Position numbers and translations under genes: made by a program | Assembly (NCBI RefSeq): GCF_014202975.1 | Contig: NZ_JACHHZ010000001.1 | Span: 868,001-932,000 of the forward strand | Direction of reading: 5' to 3' | Source: Povalibacter uvarum | GTDB lineage: Bacteria; Pseudomonadota; Gammaproteobacteria; Steroidobacterales; Steroidobacteraceae | DNA: 64,000 bases | Shown here: positions 4,377 through 15,081 of the stretch, piece by piece | Position numbering within the stretch: the first letter of the stretch is position 1 | How the letters are laid out: each line of letters starts with the position of its first letter | The notes under the pieces: generated by a model | Databases searched by the model: none | What the model was told of the DNA's origin: nothing | What the model saw: the letters and a program-made list of their open reading frames with translations, nothing else

Positions 4377-4453
4377 TGCGGGGTGGAGCAGTCTGGCAGC
4401 TCGTCGGGCTCATAACCCGAAGGTCGCAGGTTCAAATCCTGCCCCCGCTACCA
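4377..4453 (+). tRNA. metY: Initiator tRNA-fMet (anticodon CAT), metY-type
   Basis: A full cloverleaf with encoded CCA (4451-4453). Acceptor strands are TGCGGGG (4377-4383) and CCCCGCT (4443-4449). Position 1 faces position 72 as T:T, an unpaired end typical of bacterial initiators. The anticodon stem has the run of three G:C pairs (GGG/CCC) around the CAT anticodon, the second initiator hallmark. In enteric bacteria metY lies directly before rimP-nusA. Here 10.6 kb of foreign DNA lies between them. The element supplies the last 13 bases of the gene, so the tRNA stays intact. Confidence 0.97.
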
Positions 4454-6003
4454 TCTAAACCCCCTTGCCTCTGGAGCAACGCTCCGGGGGCAAGGGTACC
4501 GGTGGCCCAGACCTCTGCTCCCTTACCGCTGCCTTTCCCGTGCAGCGTTATCCTCCCGGTCCAAATCTCGGCGAGCACAAGCCGCGCTGAACCGCTGGCC
4601 TCGGCGTTGCCTTCGATACCTGCGATGAGCTGATCGCGATATAGCTCTGCGCCGCGTACCAGCATGGGCAGAATCTGCGCTGTGCGCTTACCTTGCGCAC
4701 GCGGCGCAGTTAGCTGCGACCGCTTTGCTTCCGTGCGCTCGATGACCGCCATCAAATCTTCAGCAGTCATATCCGGATCGCCGTTCTTCAGTCGTGTCCG
4801 TAGGCGCGCCAACCGTTCCTCGAGCGCTGCCAGCTCGGCAGGGCGAGTGGCTTCATTCGCCGTCGCCGCTTCGAGCTGCTCCGCGTAGTAGCGTTCCATG
4901 CGCTTGGCCATCTCCTTGATCCGAGCCGGGGCGAGTAGATCGTCCATGACCACGTCCATCAGGTTCTTCTCTACCTTCGCCCGTTGCACACGCAGCTTGT
5001 TCTTGCATGCGTTGCCATACAGGTACGAGGAGCATCCGTAGGCGCGCTTGTCGAGCAGCACATAGCTCGCGCCACAATGCCCGCAGAAGAGCAGGCCGCT
5101 GAAGAGATACTTGGCCTTGCCTCCGGAGCGCAGACGCGTGTCGTCGCCTAGGCGGGTCTTACGTTGGGCCTTATGCCACTGCTCATCGGTGACGATGCGT
5201 GCAGACTCATCGCGGTGCCGTATCCATTCAGATTCAGGGCGCTCGCGGCGCAATCGCTTGCCGGTGTCTGGATCCTTGATCCATTCCGACATGTTCCACA
5301 GTATCTCGCCCCGGTAGAGCGGATTGAGGAGGATTGCGCGCACGCCGGAAGCCATCCATCCTGAGGCTCGGCGTTTTGTTCGGGCCCAGGCAGAACCGGG
5401 CGAGGGCACCTTCCGTTCGTTGAGCCGCGACGCAATGTCCTTGCAGCTCGCACCCTCCGCATGTCGCTTGAAAATTTCCCGGACAACCTTCGCCTGCGCC
5501 CCATTCACCGTGCGCTGGCCATCCTTCGTGCTGTAACCATAAGCCTTGCCGCCCGTGAGCTGCTTAGCCTTTGCTCGCATCTCCAGTGCGGAGAACGTTC
5601 TGGCCCGCACCATTTGTACGAAGGACTCGCTAACGATGCCCTCGACGCCGGCTTGCATGCTGGCAACTGCAGAGTCCGAATCGAAGTTGTTTGCAATACC
5701 AATGACACGCACCTTGCGGAACTTGAGGCGCTTGATGGTCGGCGCCAAATCTTGCGAGCGCATGAAGCGGTCGGTGTGCTGCACTAGGATCACGTCCACA
5801 TGTCCGGCCTTGGCTTCGGCCATTAGCTTCAGATAGCCCGGCCTGTTGCCGGTGGCCGTGCCGCTGATGCCGTCGTCGATGTGCTTCGCGACGATCCTCC
5901 ACTTCTGCTTCTTGGCGTACTCGGTACAAACCCGAACCTGATCCGTGATGCTTGATGGACTCTGTTTGTCGGTGCTGTAGCGAGCGTAGATAGCGGCTCT
6001 CAT
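4432..6003 (-). CDS. Large serine recombinase (integrase) of the element
   Basis: Site-specific recombinase, 523 residues, expected to integrate and excise the element. The N-terminal resolvase domain (1-145) has YARYSTDKQ with the likely nucleophile Ser10, and DRFMRS at 79-84. A 'recombinase' domain (about 150-240) follows, then a zinc ribbon with Cys307, Cys310, Cys324 and Cys333, then a coiled coil (about 388-435). The ATG at 6003 is chosen because the catalytic domain starts there and it overlaps the upstream stop as ATGA; the frame is open further upstream without family resemblance. The last residues, GSGG-RI and stop, are read from the tRNA gene: GSGG comes from the 13-bp core and the stop lies in the T-loop. 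Large serine recombinases seldom use tRNA genes. Confidence 0.93.
   Translation of the reverse strand: MRAAIYARYSTDKQSPSSITDQVRVCTEYAKKQKWRIVAKHIDDGISGTATGNRPGYLKLMAEAKAGHVDVILVQHTDRFMRSQDLAPTIKRLKFRKVRVIGIANNFDSDSAVASMQAGVEGIVSESFVQMVRARTFSALEMRAKAKQLTGGKAYGYSTKDGQRTVNGAQAKVVREIFKRHAEGASCKDIASRLNERKVPSPGSAWARTKRRASGWMASGVRAILLNPLYRGEILWNMSEWIKDPDTGKRLRRERPESEWIRHRDESARIVTDEQWHKAQRKTRLGDDTRLRSGGKAKYLFSGLLFCGHCGASYVLLDKRAYGCSSYLYGNACKNKLRVQRAKVEKNLMDVVMDDLLAPARIKEMAKRMERYYAEQLEAATANEATRPAELAALEERLARLRTRLKNGDPDMTAEDLMAVIERTEAKRSQLTAPRAQGKRTAQILPMLVRGAELYRDQLIAGIEGNAEASGSARLVLAEIWTGRITLHGKGSGKGAEVWATGTLAPGALLQRQGGLDGSGGRI
4441..4453 (+). repeat. Attachment site core, left (attL)
   Basis: The 13 bases GCCCCCGCTACCA form the end of the tRNA T-stem, the 3' acceptor strand, the discriminator and CCA. 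The same 13 bases recur at 15069-15081. The bases on each side of the two copies differ (T before and T after here; G before and C after at the right copy), so the identity ends sharply. Confidence 0.85.
4462..4496. other. Perfect 16-bp stem hairpin just inside the left end of the element
   Basis: Arms 4462-4477 and 4481-4496 pair over all 16 positions (two are G:U) around a 3-base AAC loop. It starts nine bases after the tRNA CCA and is not followed by a T run on either strand. It also codes for the last residues of the recombinase. It could stop or process the tRNA transcript, or be part of the recombinase binding site. Confidence 0.6.
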
Positions 6004-6191
6004 CGGCGCGCGCTCCCCTTGCTGGAGAACTTGTGTCCACGCGACACGAGAAACTCTCGCAGAGCGCGCCGCATCAGGTACTGCTGCGTCCGCTCCTCCT
6101 TCTCCGCTTCTTTTCGCAATGCATCGCCGATCTCCGGCAGTACGTAGACGGAGAGCAGCTTGGTGAACTTCTTTGGTTGATACTTGGGCAC
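6000..6191 (-). CDS. Small ribbon-helix-helix-like regulator
   Basis: A 63-residue basic protein. Residues about 10-50 (KLLSVYVLPEIGDALRKEA, then a turn and a second helix ending ALREFLV) have the strand-helix-helix pattern of Arc/CopG-type proteins. Its stop overlaps the recombinase start (ATGA), so the two are translationally coupled. A plausible ribosome site, AGGAA, lies before the ATG. Two copies of a GGTA-N3-TACC palindrome cover its promoter, which suggests that it represses itself and the recombinase. It could also be the directionality factor. The family call is from pattern, not from a database match. Confidence 0.7.
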   Translation of the reverse strand: MPKYQPKKFTKLLSVYVLPEIGDALRKEAEKEERTQQYLMRRALREFLVSRGHKFSSKGSARR

Positions 6192-6209
6192 GGCACATTC
6201 CTCGTATCG

Positions 6210-6256
6210 GGTAAAATACCGGGTATATTATAGGTATCTTACCTATTAAAAAACAA
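6210..6256 (-). promoter_or_regulatory. Leftward promoter of regulator and recombinase with two operator palindromes
   Basis: Read on the minus strand: -35-like TTGTTT (6256-6251) and a perfect -10 TATAAT (6232-6227), 18 bases apart. Palindrome one is GGTA-AAA-TACC (6210-6220). Palindrome two is GGTA-TCT-TACC (6233-6243), extended to 7-base arms at 6230-6246. Their centres are 23 bases apart, about two helix turns. Palindrome two fills the promoter spacer and palindrome one covers the start region, as expected of an autorepressor operator. Confidence 0.7.
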
Positions 6257-6527
6257 TAGCTTACGAGCTTCATGGCGTTGTAGGTGGTTAGTGGCCTACA
6301 ATGACGGCAGGCGGGAGCCAGCCCTAGAGGCTCCGTAACAACTAAAACAGGCGGCCGGGCGGTTGAACCTCGCCCGAGTTTGAGTCAGAAGAACTCGCCG
6401 CACGCGCCGCTAGGTTCAAAGACAGCGTCTCGCCGATTCCGTCGTCCACCCGCAAATTCCAGCTGCTGTTCCGCGGCACGGGTGAGGTGCGTCTATCGCG
6501 AGCTGCTGCGCGTTGGAGCCTCCTAAC
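6247..6527. promoter_or_regulatory. Divergent control region of the element, with an inverted repeat over a candidate rightward -10
   Basis: About 280 bases without a convincing gene between the leftward recombinase unit and the rightward replication unit. An inverted repeat TTGTAGG (6278-6284) and CCTACAA (6295-6301), 10 bases apart, overlaps a -10-like TACAAT (6297-6302) for rightward transcription; no good -35 is seen. A ribosome site GGAG (6515-6518) lies 9 bases before the first rightward gene. Confidence 0.45.
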
Positions 6528-6725
6528 ATGGCACGCAAAACGGGCAAGCCCCGCTCAGTCCCCCTCACTACGTCGGCGATCGCTCGAAAGATCAACAGAA
6601 GCGAGAACACGACACGTCAACTTCTAGATCGTGGAGTCATTCCGTGCCGCCGTGATTCCGGCGGACGGCGAATCGCGGAGGCGTCCGACGTAGACGCCTA
6701 TCTCGAATCTCACAAGTGCGCATGA
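6528..6725 (+). CDS. Small HTH DNA-binding protein, excisionase/AlpA-like
   Basis: A 65-residue protein, first gene of the rightward unit. The segment TTSAIARKINRSENTTRQLLDRG followed by IPCRRDSGGRRIAEASDVDAYL, read as two parts, has the layout of excisionase-family winged-HTH proteins: a helix pair, then a basic wing, then the 'DVDAYL' end helix. The ATG at 6528 is preferred over an in-frame TTG at 6513 because GGAG at 6515-6518 is spaced correctly for it. In satellites such a protein often controls excision and replication genes. The exact role here is inference. Confidence 0.65.
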   Translation: MARKTGKPRSVPLTTSAIARKINRSENTTRQLLDRGVIPCRRDSGGRRIAEASDVDAYLESHKCA

Positions 6726-6737
6726 GCGGCGTTCGCT

Positions 6738-6956
6738 ATGAATCGCGAACAACTGCTCGACGAGCTGGCGTGGTGCTACGCACGCGCCGCCGTTGACCGA
6801 CTCATCAAACAACAATCGGAGAACCGCACATGGCCGCAACCAAAGCCAAGCGCTCAAAGCGCAAAGCCTCAGCGCCCAAATCGCTCCCAGAGTGGCAGAC
6901 ACGCGACTACTTCGCGAGCGACCGGCGCTACAACGAAGAGCGTAAGAAAGCGCTGA
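6738..6956 (+). CDS. Possible small unknown protein
   Basis: A 72-residue frame starting 12 bases after the HTH gene. The first 30 residues (MNREQLLDELAWCYARAAVD...) look like real protein, while the rest is rich in Ser, Arg and Gln and overlaps the next gene from 6830. Either it is a short overlapping gene, or only its start is translated and couples to the next gene. No family recognised. Confidence 0.35.
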   Translation: MNREQLLDELAWCYARAAVDRLIKQQSENRTWPQPKPSAQSAKPQRPNRSQSGRHATTSRATGATTKSVRKR

Positions 6957-7246
6957 TCGATCTCGCGAAGAAGTTCGACGACAAGGAAGTTGAGGAATGG
7001 AGCGTTCTGGCTGAGTCGGTCTACAGAGAGCTCACCCCGATCATTGGTTCAGATGTACTGCTCGCCTCGATGCGACGGCACATCGCTTTCTATGCACAGG
7101 ACTTCGCTGCGAATGTGGCCGAAGCGCTTCTGGATGAAATCCACGCAGCGATAACTTCTCACAACCTGCAGGAACGTGATCGTGTATCCGCTGAGTACGG
7201 TGCAGCGTTGCGGCGCCGCTCGAAGAAAGCGGGAGGTGCGCGATGA
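6830..7246 (+). CDS. Hypothetical protein of the element
   Basis: A 138-residue, charged, predicted soluble protein. It starts with a Lys/Arg/Ala-rich stretch (residues 1-18), followed by mainly helical sequence with no cysteines and no membrane segment. Its stop overlaps the start of the next gene (ATGA), which places it in the same operon as the primase. No family recognised. Confidence 0.7.
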   Translation: MAATKAKRSKRKASAPKSLPEWQTRDYFASDRRYNEERKKALIDLAKKFDDKEVEEWSVLAESVYRELTPIIGSDVLLASMRRHIAFYAQDFAANVAEALLDEIHAAITSHNLQERDRVSAEYGAALRRRSKKAGGAR

Positions 7247-7755
7247 ACACACAGCAGTGGCTTCTGAAGAATCGGGCGGAGGACTACGGCACCGACCGCA
7301 TCGATCTCGACGGGTCGCTGGGCGTGTGCGCCAGCGTCGAGCACGCACATAGCGGCTTCACTGAAGCGAAGGACCATCCGTACGTGCTTCGCAATCGACA
7401 CACGCTCGAACGCATCGTCGTAATCGGTGGCGGTCCGCTCGTGGAATCCGAACTCAAGCGGAAGATGACGTTGCACGCGGTACGGCATTGGGTCGGGCTC
7501 GGTTGGTCTCATCAATTTCGCGCTAAGGCCGAACAGGACCCGGAGCACGAATGGTCCATCGTGGAGACGCAATGGTGTCAGCGCAATTCGCTGCGCTACC
7601 TCATCGGCTACTGCGACCCGGTCGCACCCGAGTGGCCTAACTTCCGCGTGCCGCGTGGTCTGGAGCTTCGCAATCTCCTCATGCAACTCCGCAACGAAGG
7701 CTTGCCGGTGTCGCCTCTCGACCTCGACTCACCGCGCTTCCGCGCCAGTCACTAA
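7243..7755 (+). CDS. Hypothetical protein of the element
   Basis: A 170-residue protein coupled by a 4-base overlap to the gene before it and followed 15 bases later by the primase-helicase. It has a mix of charged and aromatic residues with no signal peptide or membrane helix (for example HAVRHWVGLGWSHQF and SLRYLIGYCDP). Position next to the replication gene suggests a replication or regulatory accessory, but the sequence shows no motif that proves it. Confidence 0.7.
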   Translation: MNTQQWLLKNRAEDYGTDRIDLDGSLGVCASVEHAHSGFTEAKDHPYVLRNRHTLERIVVIGGGPLVESELKRKMTLHAVRHWVGLGWSHQFRAKAEQDPEHEWSIVETQWCQRNSLRYLIGYCDPVAPEWPNFRVPRGLELRNLLMQLRNEGLPVSPLDLDSPRFRASH

Positions 7756-7770
7756 CAACAAGGGTCAGCA

Positions 7771-9894
7771 ATGAAGGGTTTTGCGCGACGAACACTGAAC
7801 TGGAACGAACTGGGCTCACCGAAGCTGTCTGAGTGGGCTCGAGCCTACCTTGAGGAACGCGACATCTCTTTGACCGAGGCTCGCGAATGCAATCTGAGGT
7901 CGTTAGATGCCGAGCAGACCGCTGCGCTGTGGCCCGCGTGCAAGAGCGAATCACTTTTGGTGCCGTATTCGGACGACTACGGTACTGCGCGGATCGCATC
8001 GCCGCCGAATGGCGACGACAAGTTCCGATCTACAACCGGAGCGATTCAGCTATTCAAGCCGCGTAACCTGCGAGCCAAGAAGAGCAAGTCGCTGTACATC
8101 ATCGAGGGGCCGATCAAGGCCGTCGCCGCTGCCGCACAGGGATTGGACGTGCGTGGCATCGGTGGATGCTGGAACTGGCAACGCCATCGGCGGCCGATAC
8201 CTGGTCTGCGCAAGCTGCGTGTCGGCGACCGATCCGTCATACCGGTATTCGATGCCGACATCACGGAGAACAACAGCGTACTACTGGCCTATCTGCTTCT
8301 GGGTGACTGGCTCCTGAAGCAGGGTGCGCGTGTGAAGCATCTGCGCATCCCGAGCGCCAAGGGACGACACACCGGCATCGATGACTTCCTGGCGTCTAAG
8401 GGTCTCGGTGCATTCAAGAAGCTCACCCGGCATGACTGGGATAGCGAAGAGTTGGAACGGCTGCGCACGTCAGTCATGCAGACGACGGAAGGCGGTCTCG
8501 CTGCGCGCTTCGTGATGAGCTATGCCGACGACGTGCGATATGACCCCAAGGAAGATGAGTGGTTCTGTTGGAACGGGAAGCTCTGGGTACCGCAGGCGAG
8601 AGGGAGACCGGCCGATGCAGTTGAGGCGATGAAGGCGGAGGTGCGTCGCATCGTTACCGAGGCCAACGCAGTGCCGAATGCGGAGCGTCGAAAGCGAATG
8701 CTCGTATGGGGTGCGAAGTGCGACAACAACGGCACCGTCAAGGGCGCGATGGCGCTGGCCAGCACGGACATGCGGATTCGATTGAACCGGGCCAAGCTTG
8801 ATAGTGATCCGCACTTGCTCGGCACAGCGAATGGAGTTCTCGATCTGCGCACAAGGCAGATCGTCGAGAGCAATCGAGACGACTATGTCACCCGCAGAGT
8901 GGTCGTGCCCTACGATCCCGATGCAAAGTGCCCGACGTGGAAGCGGTTCCTAGCGGACGTGCTCTGTACAGCGGAGACCGTGACCAGAGGTAAGAAGCGC
9001 ACGACGAGATACCGCACGCACTGGGGTCTAGTTAACTTCATTCGCCGCTTCGCAGGCTATCTCCTGTATGGCGGCAATCCGGATCGCCTCATCTTCTTTC
9101 TGTATGGCGAGGGTCGCAACGGTAAGAGCGTGTTCATCGAAACGCTGCTCGAACTGATGGGCGACTACGGTATCGCAGCCAAGTCCGAGCTGTTGATGCA
9201 GAACGGAGCGCTGCGCGATTCCGAGAGCGCCCAGCCCTTCATGCTGCGTCTGCGTGACACGCGCTACATCACCGCATCGGAAGTCAAAGAAGGGATGGCG
9301 CTTGATCCTTCCACTGTAAAGACACTGACCGGCGGCGATGTGATGACGTGTCGCGGTCTGCGGTCCTTGCCCGTTCAGTTCACCGTGCTCGGTAAAGTGG
9401 TCGTGCGCTGTAACAACCGCGTCGTTATCGACGGCGGCGATCAGGCGTTATGGGATCGAGTTGTAGAGATTCCATTCAATCGACGCATTGCGGACGCAGA
9501 GCAGGACAAGAGCCTGCGACAGAAGCTGCGTGCCGAACTGCCCGGCATTCTGGCTTGGGCGGTTCGAGGTTACGCAGACTACGCCGACGAGGGAGCACTG
9601 AAGCTGCCCGCAATCGTTCGCAAGCAAGTAGCCGATTACCGCTACGCAATGGATTCGCTTTCGCAGTGGATGGACGAGTGCGTCCAACTCGATACCGCTG
9701 CCAAGACACTCAGTAGCGACGTGCGGTCGAGCTACGAAAGATGGTGTGAGCGGCAGGCGATGGAGCGGCAATCGGTGATCGTTCCCGTATCGAGACTAGA
9801 GCTAAACAAGAAACTCGAAGCATCAGGCTTCGTGAGGAAGGAATCGCACAGTCAGACCAAATGGTTCGGTCTGCGACTGAAGGTGGCGGAATGA
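7771..9894 (+). CDS. Primase-helicase, D5/P4 family (SF3 helicase)
   Basis: Replication initiator of 707 residues. A Toprim-like segment lies at about 105-210, with SLYIIEGPIKAVAAAA (Glu) and VIPVFDADIT (two Asp). A D5-type N domain follows (about 270-390). The SF3 helicase has Walker A GEGRNGKS near residue 448, a Walker-B-like YITASE near 497, and a conserved tail with VVRCNNRVVIDGGDQALWDRV, here best read as sensor and arginine-finger region. Such proteins start replication of phage P4 and many satellites. A small-protein block precedes it, and the next start codon overlaps its stop (ATGA). Confidence 0.92.
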   Translation: MKGFARRTLNWNELGSPKLSEWARAYLEERDISLTEARECNLRSLDAEQTAALWPACKSESLLVPYSDDYGTARIASPPNGDDKFRSTTGAIQLFKPRNLRAKKSKSLYIIEGPIKAVAAAAQGLDVRGIGGCWNWQRHRRPIPGLRKLRVGDRSVIPVFDADITENNSVLLAYLLLGDWLLKQGARVKHLRIPSAKGRHTGIDDFLASKGLGAFKKLTRHDWDSEELERLRTSVMQTTEGGLAARFVMSYADDVRYDPKEDEWFCWNGKLWVPQARGRPADAVEAMKAEVRRIVTEANAVPNAERRKRMLVWGAKCDNNGTVKGAMALASTDMRIRLNRAKLDSDPHLLGTANGVLDLRTRQIVESNRDDYVTRRVVVPYDPDAKCPTWKRFLADVLCTAETVTRGKKRTTRYRTHWGLVNFIRRFAGYLLYGGNPDRLIFFLYGEGRNGKSVFIETLLELMGDYGIAAKSELLMQNGALRDSESAQPFMLRLRDTRYITASEVKEGMALDPSTVKTLTGGDVMTCRGLRSLPVQFTVLGKVVVRCNNRVVIDGGDQALWDRVVEIPFNRRIADAEQDKSLRQKLRAELPGILAWAVRGYADYADEGALKLPAIVRKQVADYRYAMDSLSQWMDECVQLDTAAKTLSSDVRSSYERWCERQAMERQSVIVPVSRLELNKKLEASGFVRKESHSQTKWFGLRLKVAE

Positions 9895-10136
9895 ATCAAG
9901 GGTGGCGGTGGGCGGCATGGGTGCTTGCGATGGCATTTACTCTCTATATCGATCTCTTAAGCAGCAAATGGCAAATGAAGCACCCGCGCCACCACCACCA
10001 CCAACGCGATTTCGGGAGGGGAGTGATGGACGCTAGAGCGTCGCGTTTCGAGGAGCCCGCGTCAGGTGAATTTTGTCGCGCCGGTCTTTCTCTGGGACGT
10101 CAAATATCCAATCAGCTTTTGAGGAGAAACCATTGA
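9891..10136 (+). CDS. Small membrane protein of the element
   Basis: An 81-residue frame starting with an ATG that overlaps the primase stop. One hydrophobic helix is seen at about residues 4-22 (WRWAAWVLAMAFTLYIDLL), then a His-rich basic stretch with HPRHHHHQRD. The C-terminal part is less protein-like and runs into the ribosome site of the small terminase gene. The start and membrane helix are credible; the full length is less certain. Confidence 0.5.
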   Translation: MNQGWRWAAWVLAMAFTLYIDLLSSKWQMKHPRHHHHQRDFGRGVMDARASRFEEPASGEFCRAGLSLGRQISNQLLRRNH

Positions 10137-10477
10137 GCAAGCTCGCACTGGCAGCCGCGCCTCCGAAACCGGGATTGAGTCCACCACCTCCCGACGATTT
10201 GCGCAAGGAAACGAAAGCGCTGTGGAACTCACTGGTGAAAGGCTTTGGCCTGTATGACCCGGCCTCCTTGAGCATCCTCGCCGATGCGCTGCGTGCCGAC
10301 GACGCCATCGCCGAGCACCGGGCGGTACTGCAACGCGCGGGGCGCCGCGGCAAGAAAGATGCGCGTGGAGTGCGTCGAGCCCATCCGAGCGAGAAGCAAA
10401 TTGTCGAGCTGACGAAGCTGAAGCTCAGTTGCTTTCGCATGCTGAAGATCGACTTCGCGCCCGGCGGACGACGGTGA
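10133..10477 (+). CDS. Phage terminase small subunit, P27-like
   Basis: A 114-residue protein that would select DNA for packaging. A Pro-rich N-terminus is followed by KETKALWNSLVKGFGLYDPASLSILADALRADD, read here in two pieces, which matches the P27-type small terminase layout, and by the helix SEKQIVELTKLKLSCFRML. The TTG start at 10133 is chosen because GAGGAG lies 6 bases before it; in-frame codons further upstream lack one. The large terminase that should follow is not there. Family assignment is by pattern recognition. Confidence 0.72.
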   Translation: MSKLALAAAPPKPGLSPPPPDDLRKETKALWNSLVKGFGLYDPASLSILADALRADDAIAEHRAVLQRAGRRGKKDARGVRRAHPSEKQIVELTKLKLSCFRMLKIDFAPGGRR

Positions 10478-10920
10478 GCCGCTTCTATCGCACATGGATG
10501 AGCCACGACGGCGGCAGTCACTACGACACTCAAGCTATGACGGAGAGATACGTGACACGCGATCTCCACGAATGTCGTCCAGCCCACTCACTACCAGAAG
10601 GCCAGACCGCCGAGAACCACATTCCGGAGGGTGTCGATCACTGGTACGCGCTGATCCTTCTCGCCGACATGACGTTGCGCGGTGATCGAGCGCGACGTGT
10701 ATGGGAGCGCCATCGCGAAGCTGCGATAGCGGAATGGATCAAGGTGGCCCCAGGTACGCGCCCGAAGTTCTGGTGGACGTACGACGCGCCGGAGCCACTG
10801 CCCAAGGGCGAGTCGCAAGCCGCGTATCTCGCAAGACACAACCTACTTACGCCTGTCGAGAAGCGAAGGCTTCCGCAGGCCGCACGTGAACTGAAACCGC
10901 AACTCAAGGTGATTCAATGA
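10474..10920 (+). CDS. Conserved-looking phage protein of unknown function
   Basis: A 148-residue protein starting with GTG that overlaps the small terminase stop (GTGA). Its C-terminal half (GTRPKFWWTYDAPEP, then ESQAAYLARHNLLTPVEKRRL) resembles unknown proteins next to terminase genes in prophages. The central helix WERHREAAIAEWI is amphipathic. It sits where a large terminase gene would normally be but has no ATPase or nuclease motif and is far too short to be one. Confidence 0.65.
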   Translation: MSRFYRTWMSHDGGSHYDTQAMTERYVTRDLHECRPAHSLPEGQTAENHIPEGVDHWYALILLADMTLRGDRARRVWERHREAAIAEWIKVAPGTRPKFWWTYDAPEPLPKGESQAAYLARHNLLTPVEKRRLPQAARELKPQLKVIQ

Positions 10921-11153
10921 GCATCGACAAAGATCAATTCCGCGATGGGTTCAAAGCCCGTCTGCAATCACTGGCAGAGGCCGCCGAATCGAAGGCCGTA
11001 CTGGAGCCGCTCGACATCGGCGGCATCTTCCTCGCCATCGGTACAACCATGCTGTCCCGCCAACTCGGTGAGGAACAGACCATCAAGTACCTGCGTGAGC
11101 TGGCCACCGAATACGAAACGACGAAAGCGGCACCTGCCAGCCAGTTGAACTGA
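10917..11153 (+). CDS. Small hypothetical protein of the element
   Basis: A 78-residue acidic helical protein, coupled to the preceding gene by a 4-base overlap (ATGA). It contains FRDGFKARLQSLAEAAESKA and a hydrophobic helix DIGGIFLAIGTTMLSRQL. No family recognised. Its tight place between terminase and capsid genes suggests a role in head assembly or packaging, but that is inference. Confidence 0.6.
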   Translation: MSIDKDQFRDGFKARLQSLAEAAESKAVLEPLDIGGIFLAIGTTMLSRQLGEEQTIKYLRELATEYETTKAAPASQLN

Positions 11154-11176
11154 CTTCCAGTCCACGCAATCGCTGC

Positions 11177-11428
11177 GTGTCGATTCCGTTGGTTGCCAGC
11201 GTGACGCTGTGCGGCCGGTCGTTCGTGATGAACGAGAGCGGAGTGTCGACGTGCTTCGAGCGCGAGGACGAACCGCATGAGTGTGGCGAGGAGATGTGCC
11301 GCACCGTGCGAAGCCTTACTGCGATGCCAGTCGTGACGCTGGCGCGGGAGGAATCATTACCTCTTTGGAGTAATCGCAATGCCAAGTGCAATTCAACAGA
11401 TGATCAGCCGTGTCGAAGACATCGCTGA
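11177..11428 (+). CDS. Possible small cysteine-rich protein, low confidence
   Basis: An 83-residue frame starting with GTG and overlapping the capsid gene start by 50 bases. Four cysteines with a His (LCGRSF, STCFERE, HECGEEMC) could bind zinc. No good ribosome site is seen and the C-terminal third lies over the capsid leader, so it may not be a gene. Confidence 0.3.
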   Translation: MSIPLVASVTLCGRSFVMNESGVSTCFEREDEPHECGEEMCRTVRSLTAMPVVTLAREESLPLWSNRNAKCNSTDDQPCRRHR

Positions 11429-12578
11429 GAGTTTTCAGAAGTTCAAGAAATCGTACGATGAGCGCGTCGAGGACATCGAAAAGCGACTCGGAGATCGCGT
11501 CGATGATCTGGACGAGCGAGTGACCGGACGGGAGGCGCTGGAAGCGAAGGAAGGCGCGCCGCATCCGTCACTCCTGACGGGCGGCGCTTCCGAGGCGAAG
11601 GCTCGCAAGGCGTTCAACGAGTACCTTCACAAGAACGATCCCAGTCTGCTGGCGGAGTTCGAGTCGAAGGACTTCAGCATCGCCGGTGGTGTCGCCACCG
11701 GATCGGCGACGGTGCCCGAAGTTATCGCTTCGATGTTGTATCAGCGTGCGGTCGATGAGGCTCCGCTGATCAACGAGGTCACCGTGACTCCGTCGAGCAC
11801 CGGCGACTACAAGCGCAACCAGAATCGCAAAGGAATGGAATCTGGTTGGGTCGGTGAGACGGATACGCGTACCAAGACCGGCACGCCGACGCTGCGTCTC
11901 ACGACTCCTCCGGGCGGCGAGGTGTACGCCTACCCGAAGGCGACGAGCTGGAGCGTGCAGGACAGCATGTTCGATCTCGGCTCACTGCTCATCGGCGATG
12001 CGGGTGAGGAGTTCGGCTCCAAGCTCGAGGACTCAATCCTGTTCGGCAACGGCACCAACAAGCCGGAAGGCATGTTGTACGTGACGCCGACCACGCAGAC
12101 CGATGCGAGCAATGCGCGTGCGGCGAACGTGCTGCGGTATGTCACCGCGGTCGGAAGCCCGAACACGTTGGACGCCGACGTGCTCATCAACGCGTTGTTC
12201 GATCTCAAGGCCGCATACCGCCGGAACGCGGCATGGGTCATGAACTCGGTGACGCTGGCGTACTGCCGCAAGCTGAAGGACTTGGAAGGACGCTACATCT
12301 TCACTGAGCCGAACAACGATCCGTCTGCCCCGGATGGCCGCATCTTCGGCAAGCGTGTCGTGACCAGCGAAAAGATGCAGGACGTGGGTGCCGGTGCGGG
12401 CAACTTCCCGATTCTGGTCGGTGACCTCAAGCGTGGCTATGAGCGTGTGGACGTGGGCTCGATGCTCATCACGCGCGACGACAACATCACCGAACCGGGC
12501 TTCGTGAAGTGGTACATGCGCCGTCGGCATCTGGGACGCATCCTGGATAACGACGCGGTGCGTGCGATCCGCACGTAA
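11379..12578 (+). CDS. Phage major capsid protein, HK97 fold
   Basis: Shell protein of 399 residues. Residues 1-60 form a charged coiled coil (SRVEDIAESFQKFKKSYDER...), like the HK97 scaffolding 'delta' segment. From about residue 95 the HK97-type body follows: a GSATVPEVIASMLYQRA arm, ESGWVGETDTRTKTGTPT, AYPKATSWSVQDSMFDL, an 'SILFGNGTNKPEGMLYV' segment, and the end LGRILDNDAVRAIR. GGAG lies 8 bases before the ATG. No prohead protease is encoded nearby, so the delta segment would stay on or be cut by a helper protease. Confidence 0.92.
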   Translation: MPSAIQQMISRVEDIAESFQKFKKSYDERVEDIEKRLGDRVDDLDERVTGREALEAKEGAPHPSLLTGGASEAKARKAFNEYLHKNDPSLLAEFESKDFSIAGGVATGSATVPEVIASMLYQRAVDEAPLINEVTVTPSSTGDYKRNQNRKGMESGWVGETDTRTKTGTPTLRLTTPPGGEVYAYPKATSWSVQDSMFDLGSLLIGDAGEEFGSKLEDSILFGNGTNKPEGMLYVTPTTQTDASNARAANVLRYVTAVGSPNTLDADVLINALFDLKAAYRRNAAWVMNSVTLAYCRKLKDLEGRYIFTEPNNDPSAPDGRIFGKRVVTSEKMQDVGAGAGNFPILVGDLKRGYERVDVGSMLITRDDNITEPGFVKWYMRRRHLGRILDNDAVRAIRT

Positions 12579-12810
12579 CTAGTTGCTGGAAGCGCTGCGT
12601 TCTTCCAATCGCGCAGCGGCGGGGTCAGTCGTGAGTGCCCGTGCATAGAAATAACCGCGACCGCCGACAGACGAATCTCCTTTTGCTGTGATCCGTGTCG
12701 TCGTGGTCGGCAGCTCGGGGCGTGGTCTTACTCCACGGATCACGCCCCGTAGTTTCTGCCTTAGATTGCGTGGAGTCGTTGGAGTACGCAGGGTTGTGTG
12801 TGTTTGCGTT

Positions 12811-12900
12811 GTGATGCGTGTGTTTGTGTGTGTTCGCGTTGTGACGCGTGTGTTTGTGTGTGTTCGCGTGGTGATGCGTGTGTTTGTGTGCGTTCGCGTT
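12811..12900. repeat. Three tandem 30-bp G/T-rich repeats
   Basis: Copies at 12811-12840, 12841-12870 and 12871-12900 differ by one to three bases. Each begins GTGATGCGTGTGTTTGTGTG or a close variant and ends in TTCGCGTT or TTCGCGTG. Partial copies flank the array (12794-12810 and 12901-12905). The plus strand is almost free of A, a strong strand asymmetry. There are no spacers, so it is not a CRISPR array. Confidence 0.85.
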
Positions 12901-12908
12901 GTGATAGA

Positions 12909-12942
12909 TGGCTCAACATTGAGCCACATGAAGGCGCCTTCA
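12909..12942. repeat. Two adjacent perfect palindromes after the 30-bp array
   Basis: TGGCTCAA-CA-TTGAGCCA spans 12909-12926 (8-bp arms, 2-base centre), and TGAAGGCGCCTTCA spans 12929-12942 (14 bases, no loop). Only two bases lie between them. They begin eight bases after the repeat array. Such spacing suggests protein binding sites or a cruciform-forming origin element. Confidence 0.8.
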
Positions 12943-13354
12943 CTGACAGTAGAGCATCTGTCTAGAAGACAGAGAGTCATCTACGCAAACTGGACTTGAA
13001 TTTGACGAATCGCTCAGTATCTTTGGTGACCTGCGCTCCCGCTTCGTTCGGAGTAGCTCGACGCCCGGTTAACGAAACTGGGAAGGCGAATGGTTGACTC
13101 AACAACCAAGCGGCCAACGGCGATGACGAACGGCACGAGCCGACACCGCGGTTACCCCTGACCAATGACGTCTACGGATTTCAGATTGCAATGCAGGTGG
13201 CGGGGTGGGGGCGCAGCGCTTTCATGTCTAGAGCAAGATCGGAAACAGGGACGTTGCAGCTTTGTCAGCATAAGGGACGTACTGTGGCTTCGATGGAAAT
13301 CCTGACGCGCGCGTAGGCCGCGCAAAGAACAACACTCAGCACGAAGGACGATAC

Positions 13355-14107
13355 ATGCCGGACCCCGTAGTTCCTTTTTACCTAGACTGGAAGTTCTGGT
13401 CTTTCTTCACCGCTGCATTGGCACTGCTGCTCTCGCAGCTACCACCTATTCATCATTGGTTCCGCAGTTCGAAGATTGTCGTCGACACGTACACGATGAT
13501 TCATGTGACGCACAAGATCGGCAATCCGAATGCGCAACTGCAGCTGAGCGTACGAAACACTGGTCGAAGAACGGTGCGGATTCTCGGCTTGGAGCTTCGG
13601 TTCAAGCGCGGGGACTCGGTGTTCGTGCTGCCTGCAATCAATGCGGCGGAGCTGCAGAATGATCGGCCGGTAATGTTGGGTTCTTTTCGACTGAAGGTCG
13701 ACGAGGAATGGTCACGTATCGTGAACTTCTTTCCCATACTCTCGCGGCAGGATGATCGATCCCTTAGATTGGCGATGAGTCAGATTCGCGCGGATATCGT
13801 CAGCAAGCGCGCTGGCTTGCCTCAGAATGCTCCAGAAGTGGCGGCGGACCAGGCGGTCGTGGCGCCCTTGCTTGCAATGTTCAATTCCAAGTTCTGCTGG
13901 CTACCCGGCGAGTACGATCTGGATTTGGTTGTGAAGACAGAGCCCGCGGGTGTGGCCGACACGATGCGGCTCAGGTTTACGTTGTTCGAGTCCGATTCGG
14001 ATGAGATGGAGAAGTATGCCGAGAAGTATCAATTCGGGTATGACCTGCTAATGAATCACGCCGATCATCAAGGGATACTGGCAAACATATCGCCTCGCTC
14101 TGCGTAG
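13355..14107 (+). CDS. Membrane-anchored protein of unknown function (element cargo)
   Basis: A 250-residue protein. One membrane helix (about residues 13-29, FWSFFTAALALLLSQL) is followed by a long soluble part. In it a beta-rich region resembles an immunoglobulin-like or 'NTG' fold (QLQLSVRNTGRRTVRILGLEL), and a charged tail ends the protein. No catalytic motif is recognised. The DNA is visibly lower in G+C than its surroundings (13681-13740 is about 45%), suggesting separate acquisition. It lies 27 bases before the DUF4145 gene, so the two form a pair. Defence or exclusion is possible but unproven. Confidence 0.75.
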   Translation: MPDPVVPFYLDWKFWSFFTAALALLLSQLPPIHHWFRSSKIVVDTYTMIHVTHKIGNPNAQLQLSVRNTGRRTVRILGLELRFKRGDSVFVLPAINAAELQNDRPVMLGSFRLKVDEEWSRIVNFFPILSRQDDRSLRLAMSQIRADIVSKRAGLPQNAPEVAADQAVVAPLLAMFNSKFCWLPGEYDLDLVVKTEPAGVADTMRLRFTLFESDSDEMEKYAEKYQFGYDLLMNHADHQGILANISPRSA

Positions 14108-14134
14108 ACAAAGAAGAATGGAGGCTGCGACGCT

Positions 14135-14854
14135 ATGGCAATAAAGCCATTCAACTGGTTGTGCCCGCACTGTCAGCACAACGTGACCATCTCCGATAAC
14201 CTGTATTCGGAGGACACACACTACTTACATATCTCTAATAGCTCCGGCCAGCTCGCACTGAGGAGCAGATTTTTTGTCTGCCCTAATCAGGAGTGCAGGA
14301 AGGTAACGCTTAAGGCGGCTCTGTACCTCTGGGAGCGTCAGTACAACGAGAACAGGGTACAGACTCCTGCACAGAAGCACTGGGACCTTGTCCCATCTTC
14401 CGACGCGCGACCGTTTCCGGAGTACGTGCCCAAGGCAATCCGTATTGACTATGAGGAGGCGTGCCTCATACGCGCTCTGAGTCCTAAGGCGGCTGCGACA
14501 CTCGCTCGCCGTACCCTTCAAGGGATACTGCGCGACTTCTATGGCGTTAAGGCTGGTCGACTCGTAGACGAGATCGAGTCACTCAAAGCGAAGATGGATC
14601 CAGAGTTATTGGACGCGATCCATGCGGTTCGAAAGGTGGGCAACATAGGAGCCCACATGGAAGCCGACATAGATGTAATCGTGGACGTCGATCCCGGTGA
14701 GGCGCAGCTGTTGATAGAGCTGGTCGAGACAATGATCGAGGAAACCTATGAGCGCCGCGAACAACGAAAGACCAGACTCCAGAAGGTCACGGACCTTGCG
14801 GCGGCGAAGGAGCAGGATCGCAAGGCTGCTCCCGTGAAAACCCCCAGTCCCTGA
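14135..14854 (+). CDS. DUF4145 domain protein with N-terminal zinc-ribbon-like region (element cargo)
   Basis: A 239-residue soluble protein. Residues about 8-55 hold two Cys pairs (CPHC and CPNQEC), a likely zinc ribbon. Residues about 105-205 match the DUF4145 pattern: SPKAAATLARRTLQGILRDF, then MDPELLDAIHAVRKVGNIGAH, then an acidic helix LIELVETMIEETYE. DUF4145 is known from restriction enzymes and other defence-linked proteins, where its role is not clear. G+C content is low like that of its partner upstream (14221-14280 is under 50%). Its place at the att-proximal end of the element is typical of cargo. Confidence 0.75.
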   Translation: MAIKPFNWLCPHCQHNVTISDNLYSEDTHYLHISNSSGQLALRSRFFVCPNQECRKVTLKAALYLWERQYNENRVQTPAQKHWDLVPSSDARPFPEYVPKAIRIDYEEACLIRALSPKAAATLARRTLQGILRDFYGVKAGRLVDEIESLKAKMDPELLDAIHAVRKVGNIGAHMEADIDVIVDVDPGEAQLLIELVETMIEETYERREQRKTRLQKVTDLAAAKEQDRKAAPVKTPSP

Positions 14855-15068
14855 GCGGGTACCGGCTCAGCATAGGGTTGCAACCGGGGCTCCCAGCACC
14901 CACTCAAGGGTCTACCCGGCCGCTCAGGGGCCGTCTGAGGCGTCGGGTAGCCCCAAAACCGGCGGTTGTGCTAGGCAGCGCATACATTTACACTGCGCGC
15001 CCTCTGAGCGGACCGGCCTAGCGCACCCGCACCCTTACCGGTAAGCCGGGGGGTGTAGGGCAAAGCGG
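14855..15068. other. Right end of the element, non-coding with stem-loops
   Basis: About 210 bases without a gene. A stem-loop with outer arms CTACCCG (14912-14918) and CGGGTAG (14944-14950) and inner arms near 14921-14942 is the strongest structure and may insulate the element from rimP. A palindrome TTACCGGTAA (15035-15044) lies 25 bases before the right core. It shares the TACC/GGTA half-sites of the operators near 6210-6243, and TACCGGT also occurs near the left end (4497-4503). Confidence 0.5.
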
Positions 15069-15081
15069 GCCCCCGCTACCA
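15069..15081 (+). repeat. Attachment site core, right (attR)
   Basis: Exact copy of the 13-base tRNA end GCCCCCGCTACCA found at 4441-4453. Excision between the two copies would rejoin the tRNA gene to the rimP leader, which is the metY-rimP order of related bacteria. This makes the assignment of the element's right boundary firm. Confidence 0.85.

Follow-up and report, generated by a model that had tools for sequence, protein, structure and literature searches.

An island at a tRNA-Met gene of Povalibacter uvarum with its own major capsid protein and no recognised portal, protease or large terminase: a probable phage satellite

What is a repeat-bounded island that encodes the shell protein of a phage head and lacks the motor, portal and protease that usually accompany it: a broken virus, or a parasite of viruses? 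This question is raised by a locus of Povalibacter uvarum within a 64,000-nucleotide stretch of contig NZ_JACHHZ010000001.1 (positions 868,001 to 932,000; hereafter the window, in whose own numbering positions are given), where an insertion at a tRNA-Met gene carries a major capsid protein (MCP) and a probable small terminase subunit (TerS). Its gene content supports a complete mobile island that shows none of the marks of a decayed prophage; because the island is complete and similarly built elements occur in other bacteria, it is probably a phage parasite rather than a broken virus. The reading that we favour, with somewhat better than even confidence, is a functional-looking phage satellite that supplies the shell protein and the DNA selector and would depend on a helper phage for motor, portal, protease and tail. 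The features on which this reading depends are as follows.

4377..4453, + strand: tRNA-Met (CAT) gene found by ARAGORN; its final 13 bases are the left attachment repeat
4441..4453: attL core, GCCCCCGCTACCA, an exact repeat; the identical 13 bp bounds the island of genome G156 (locus L012)
15069..15081: attR core, GCCCCCGCTACCA, an exact copy of the attL 13-mer
10133..10477, + strand: probable P27-type TerS
10474..10920, + strand: orf10474, of unknown family, with motifs PGTRPxxWW and ESQxAYL, directly after TerS
10917..11153, + strand: small open reading frame (ORF) of 78 residues, placed like similar-sized ORFs before the MCP in loci L112 and L012
11379..12578, + strand: HK97-fold MCP with a long N-terminal helix (delta-like by position), recognised by Pfam, PHROG, NCBIfam and a structure model

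The complete insertion occupies positions 4441-15081 at the 3' end of the tRNA-Met gene, with exact 13-bp repeats at both ends, and these are precisely the limits proposed in the initial annotation. The local order is nuoN, tRNA-Met, island, rimP, nusA and infB, which we take the flanking genes to be from their protein sequences. In G269, a genome of the same genus, the site is empty and nuoN, tRNA-Met and rimP lie side by side (RimP 86% identical), so that the insertion can be sized at 10,628 bp in a host genome of 6.3 Mb. Of 11 same-genus genomes checked at rimP, four have the tRNA-Met gene immediately before it, six lack it there and G382 is cut; 20 kb around rimP in each of G233, G342, G343 and G346 contained no tRNA and no island gene. 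The G+C content of the island is 0.589, compared with 0.62-0.64 outside, and third-position G+C peaks in the recombinase, primase and MCP genes as it does in the flanking genes, whereas the small ORF orf9891 is without such a pattern. A run of seven genes (6830-11153) shows 4-bp overlaps at five of its six joints, and every joint between 9891 and 11153 is overlapped by 4 bp; the earlier description of the island as tightly packed fits this run but not the 776-bp gap that separates the MCP from the cargo genes and contains 30-bp repeats. These repeats, at window positions 12764-12904, are imperfect, tandem and rich in GTGTGT, and are possibly an origin or a packaging site.

The HK97-fold MCP is full-length and matches Phage_capsid at 1.9e-52 and the HK97 MCP family TIGR01554 at 2.4e-72. 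A structure model with a predicted local distance difference test score (pLDDT) of 79 retrieved in Foldseek first the capsid of the Rhodobacter capsulatus gene transfer agent (GTA) and second that of EcCI2, a capsid-forming phage-inducible chromosomal island (cf-PICI), and a family profile built from the window MCP and 26 MCPs of viral contigs again placed GTA and EcCI2 as the top two structures, this time by sequence. For the EcCI2 capsid (9gyi) the family profile reaches 5.5e-89 and the fold match 1.2e-19; both of these capsids presumably form small heads. In HK97, the N-terminal arm, which has the same position as the long helix, is removed by a protease, and the long helix is kept in the window model even though the island has no recognised protease.

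The remaining head genes were sought with profiles for large terminase (TerL), portal, protease, TerS, connector, closure, tape measure and HNH, seeded from the annotated phages D14E, ST64B and MW462191 (individual profiles did not always draw on all three) and then iterated across 118 sequences, among which the window was represented by its first 20 kb. In a relaxed profile search of six frames, unfiltered and at E values up to 1, no credible TerL, portal, protease, connector or closure gene was found in the island, as had been stated from the outset for the first three. Only TerS (3.7e-5) and the MCP matched below 0.01; the best values above that threshold were 0.07 for TerL, 0.07 for portal, 0.04 for closure and 0.1 for connector, with protease unlisted, and the best HNH endonuclease value was 0.45 with one HNH profile. 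The stop-ridden remnants expected of a defective prophage were likewise absent at these relaxed thresholds for head genes and tape measure (other tail and lysis genes were not profile-searched). As a control, 80 viral contigs with relatives of the MCP were taken, among the matches listed; 79 of these 80 show at least one of TerL, portal, protease, connector and closure, and 77 of the 80 show TerL, portal or protease. The exception with none of those genes, L104, is a stretch of 3.7 kb.

It was found that this plan is not confined to Povalibacter. Four further complete, repeat-bounded islands of 9.6-13.1 kb, from other families, carry an MCP, and at relaxed profile settings none of them gives a credible match to TerL, portal, protease or connector.

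G156 (L012): 9,591 bp at tRNA-Met, with the same 13-mer repeat; serine recombinase (Pfam)
G099 (L011): 9,591 bp at tRNA-Leu, with a 29-bp repeat; Phage_integrase (Pfam)
G693 (L112): 10,804 bp at tRNA-Glu, with a 66-bp repeat; Phage_integrase (Pfam)
G640 (L111): 13,112 bp at tRNA-Pro, with a 60-bp repeat; Phage_integrase (Pfam)

Since the islands were chosen for lacking head genes, "five of five" characterises the class and should not be read as a frequency; the gene content of five complete islands nevertheless supports a recurrent plan in which an MCP occurs without motor, portal and protease. G156, from another family of the same order, carries a related island at the same tRNA-Met gene, with the same site and 13-bp repeat, a related recombinase, TerS (phrog_83 4e-20), an MCP and a MerR-type helix-turn-helix (HTH) protein (1.2e-7), while its replication gene differs from that of the window (AAA_25 1e-35). 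It is the sole homologue found at this spot, and it is equally reduced, so no version with the missing head genes was encountered there. G693 repeats the window order of TerS (phrog_83 2.4e-6), orf10474 (39% identical), a 77-residue ORF and the MCP, together with a tyrosine integrase and no recognised primase of the window type. From the contents of G156 and G693 it follows that replication and integration parts vary while the head part persists. The initial annotation had described an element with only the shell protein and the DNA-selection subunit, which holds for three of the five islands but not for G099 and G640, in which TerS was not recognised; G640 also has a gene for a tape-measure-like protein (L111 11324-12412; phrog_8125 1e-23) and no other recognised tail genes. 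In the same island, three adjacent tyrosine-recombinase genes occupy about 3.2 kb (L111 2916-6090) and, as we take it, resemble a recombinase-in-trio element.

The island MCPs are 27-39% identical to that of the window, and the MCP frames of the island and its relatives are open and without stops. A tree was built from 95 MCP rows (88 distinct), six of them from islands. It joins the window with G099 (100/95), a grouping for which the program warns of long branches meeting and which may be false. The six island rows require five changes on the tree, and 73 of 500 shuffles are equally low; a single clade of satellite MCPs was rejected, the island rows being no more clustered than the shuffles. 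End branches exceed 1 in five of the six island rows and also in some phage rows. The tree thus speaks for repeated capture and for constraint that is either relaxed or altered.

TerS reaches E 3.7e-5 with the TerS profile built in this analysis and, in a two-sequence BLASTP, 9e-8 (23% identity) with an ORF of the Phenylobacterium locus L120, which itself fits TerS profiles at about 4e-13. The PHROG terminase-small families match weakly (0.019 and 0.025), Pfam and NCBIfam scans gave no small-terminase match, and tblastn at E 0.1 found no phage relatives; the evidence for the P27-like small terminase first proposed is moderate. The neighbouring orf10474 is 39% identical to the corresponding ORF of L112 and has more relatives in L118-L120, while the small ORF at 10917..11153 is only 9-19% identical to its counterparts in L112 and L012, a likeness of position only. 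No relatives of orf10474 were found in the viral contigs, the phage collection or the plasmid collection, and no credible sequence kin in the PDB; an identity based on structure was dropped because the model was too poor (pLDDT 58). A genome-wide scan with the orf10474 pair gave three loci. In L119, from a metagenome-assembled genome (MAG) of Acidobacteria, the orf10474-like gene is split across two frames, and L118, in a Microvirga MAG, has a protease domain nearby (Peptidase_S78 1.5e-10). L120 encodes an integrase, a protease-like ORF (5.8e-5) and a protein of the tape-measure family (TMP_2 6e-17), and may therefore be a genuine prophage, though of a different type. None of the three was counted as a satellite. 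In L118 (1474-5148) and L120 (9465-12374), a TerS-like ORF and an orf10474 relative lie near a head-protease-like ORF, the TerS-like frame of L118 ending early; no portal, TerL or MCP of the profile types tested was found in these stretches.

The other genes of the island serve integration, regulation and replication or are carried as cargo.

4432..6003, - strand: large serine recombinase, whose frame crosses the attL core and stops within the tRNA gene
6000..6191, - strand: ribbon-helix-helix regulator (PF01402 8.4e-6)
6528..6725, + strand: AlpA/excisionase-like HTH_17 protein (PF12728 1.4e-7; phrog_66 0.003)
6830..7246, + strand: ORF of unknown family; best match phrog_16632 (0.0015, unknown function), no credible Pfam, PHROG or PADLOC family
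7243..7755, + strand: ORF of unknown family, overlapping the preceding ORF by 4 bp; no family match
7771..9894, + strand: primase-helicase (DUF3854, D5_N and P4-family primase C-terminal domains), by Pfam, PHROG and NCBIfam
9891..10136, + strand: orf9891, a small ORF with no clear coding pattern
13355..14107, + strand: cargo ORF, no family match
14135..14854, + strand: cargo DUF4145 protein resembling the defence protein PD-T7-4 (PF13643 9e-13; PADLOC 1.1e-11)

The intact serine recombinase, the two regulators and the primase-helicase named initially are all backed by Pfam or NCBIfam matches. The recombinase contains Resolvase (6e-25), Recombinase (1e-20) and zinc-ribbon (8e-9) domains and is 36% identical to the G156 recombinase at the same tRNA-Met site. 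In both islands the recombinase frame ends inside the tRNA-Met gene (window 4432-4453; L012 9728-9771), so its final codons would be host-derived in the integrated state and different in the excised circle. Use of a tRNA 3' end by a serine recombinase seems unusual; according to PMC10654092, the mapped serine-integrase mycobacterial element uses no tRNA gene. The primase-helicase scores 1.5e-30 with D5_N and 1.2e-64 with the P4-family primase TIGR01613, and the island has two traits of phage satellites in general, a defined integration site and its own replication gene. Defence genes are common luggage of satellites, and defence-type genes lie downstream of the MCP in three of the five islands: the PD-T7-4-like gene in the window, a KAP NTPase matching PDC-S20 in G693 and a type IIG restriction-methylation enzyme in G099. 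The cargo ORFs scanned in G156 (one) and G640 (four) had no match.

Relatives of the MCP were counted in several searches, the host genome itself being included in every count. Within the order, 9 of 396 genomes matched the single protein and 16 of 396 matched a 5-row profile, which also found relatives in 9 of 217 genomes of the family and 103 of 398 of the phylum; in the class, 8 of 369 genomes matched a 3-row profile. The order single-protein and class 3-row searches name 15 other genomes, of which four have the complete MCP-only islands and in seven the MCP has a portal, protease, TerL or neck gene close by (G245, G335, G394, G497, G613, G710 and G712); G127, with TerL and MCP at a contig start, and G161, G009 and G470, whose head context is ambiguous, were not counted as satellites. 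Among 42 short loci matched by the 5-row profile, 34 have at least one of TerL, portal, protease, connector and closure within about 1.5 kb; the eight without head genes include the G156 and G099 islands and two loci (G1113 and G1075) in which a full head appears when the stretch is widened to 20 kb. Of 20 phylum loci inspected over as much as 20 kb, 19 have head neighbours. The exception, L208 (G1063; 6143-10527), has an integrase and an MCP and no other recognised head genes, near a gene that is presumably groEL; its ends are unmapped and it was not counted, and the same applies to the viral contig L214, with an integrase, an HNH gene and an MCP 51% identical to that of G640. No second copies of the G693 and G640 islands were found in same-genus genomes (two each).

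Comparison with published systems limits what is new. The initial annotation presented an intermediate plan; that it is undescribed is not supported, since elements with integrase and MCP are already published from mycobacteria. PMC10654092 treats Mycobacterium regions with integrase and MCP as candidate phage-inducible chromosomal islands (PICIs), including phiRv1 and phiRv2, whose mobilisation is undemonstrated there, and notes that some candidates also carry terminase and scaffold genes. The repeat-bounded phiRv1 (9.3 kb) and phiRv2 (10.8 kb) have been proposed as satellites (PMC10654092, PMC3986857); phiBN42_1 is listed with integrase, excisionase, primase, protease and MCP, and phiMmcs_2 with a phiRv1-type integrase, HNH and MCP (PMC3986857). 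The Povalibacter island fits the definition used for those candidates, namely a non-prophage region with both integrase and MCP. To our knowledge, phiRv1 has no tail genes. Like the island, the mycobacterial elements are repeat-bounded, some have replication genes and their MCPs are diverse; they use a serine or tyrosine integrase, and in four mapped examples only the tyrosine type uses tRNA genes. They differ in their hosts, and the TerS-orf10474 cassette is absent from the descriptions in the accessible portions of PMC10654092 and PMC3986857.

Integrase, AlpA-like regulator and primase are parts shared by PICIs. cf-PICIs carry MCP, protease, portal, connectors, both terminase subunits and HNH (PMC10690885), average 14 kb (PMC10803314) and show three radiations of capsids (PMC11389934). 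The island shares with them integration, its own MCP, related to that of EcCI2 (9gyi), and its own TerS (on moderate evidence), but protease, portal, connectors, large terminase and HNH are unrecognised, leaving two of seven parts. Classical PICIs, including Staphylococcus aureus pathogenicity islands (SaPIs), as well as P4, phage-inducible chromosomal island-like elements (PLEs) and phage-inducible chromosomal minimalist islands (PICMIs), resemble the island in size, integrase and replication genes, and some SaPIs have their own TerS (PMC10690885). In contrast to the island, no MCP is described for them in the accessible sources, and they reuse or remodel the helper shell. AH14b borrows the shell of its helper (PMC4936722). 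Word searches of the literature, mostly without subscription papers, gave nothing nearer than the mycobacterial cases among the matches listed. What is new is the proteobacterial examples, a cassette found in more than one family and the absence of the protease as well.

Under the favoured satellite reading, helper infection or induction would lead the island to excise and replicate, its TerS would steer the helper large terminase onto satellite DNA, and its MCP, alone or mixed with helper MCP, would form a small shell on the helper portal. The helper protease would cut the satellite MCP, helper tails would complete the particle, and the cargo may protect the host from competing phages. Four of the five island sizes are near the P4/PICI average of about 10 kb (PMC10803314). 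Several points weigh against this reading. Helper, particle, excision and transfer are unobserved and are deduced from the genes. The HK97-type portal PF04860 and the large terminase PF03354 are absent from the host genome, in which the island MCP is the only match to the MCP search, and other head types were not searched; the check for a resident helper prophage therefore came back empty for these families, and a helper would be an infecting phage or of another type. TerS is the weakest gene call of the island, with moderate evidence, and it was not recognised in two of the five islands (G099 and G640). Of 51 columns near-invariant in a set of 26 phage MCPs, 36 are kept in the window MCP and 39-43 in the other four complete islands (39 in G161 and 40 in G127), whereas phage MCPs scored leave-one-out keep 47-51 of 51-55; with these columns lost, the interfaces of the shell may have drifted or come to serve another use. 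The search for a close relative that would allow a comparison of nonsynonymous and synonymous substitution rates (dN/dS) found none.

Drift at conserved columns would also fit a mixed shell, in which the MCP acts as a weapon or size switch by co-assembling with helper MCP and shrinking or poisoning helper heads. Without portal, protease and terminase of its own, the MCP can act only inside the assembly line of a helper, which counts for this possibility; Sid, CpmB and TcaP act on helper heads by other means. Nevertheless, the island MCPs are just 27-39% identical to that of the window, and among known helpers none has an MCP that matches. We regard a weapon or size switch as unlikely. Less probable still is a deleted or decaying prophage that happens to keep MCP and TerS. 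The long end branches of five of the six island MCP rows, the loss of some near-invariant residues in all of them and a weak protease-like stretch (3e-4) beside the MCP of G161, whose element may for that reason be decayed, point in this direction, but repeat ends are intact in five islands of 9.6-13.1 kb, the MCP frames have no stops, no remnants of head or tape-measure genes appear at relaxed thresholds, and the 4-bp overlaps run through a window cassette whose order is identical in G693. The fold also matches encapsulins at lower rank in Foldseek, which would fit a domesticated, nanocompartment-like shell protein with a cell function, carried as cargo. This is very improbable, since the long N-terminal helix is kept, the nearest solved relatives are DNA-packaging shells and TerS is present in the same island in three of five cases.

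Returning to the satellite reading, an MCP is usually inherited together with its portal, protease and terminase, since these parts must fit one another, and complete elements with an MCP alone, or with MCP and TerS, question how much fit between head parts is needed. Such elements would stand midway between satellites that depend on a helper for every part and cf-PICIs, which take only its tails, and they are tractable relatives with which to approach phiRv1 and phiRv2, a puzzle of long standing. More tentatively, at somewhat below even confidence, the islands may represent a polyphyletic class of "shell-only" satellites across proteobacteria, echoed by phiRv-type elements of mycobacteria. 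In this class the shell protein, in many cases accompanied by TerS, would suffice to claim a particle, the shell being built on a foreign portal, cut by a foreign protease and filled by a foreign motor. If this is true, MCP and portal need not be co-inherited.

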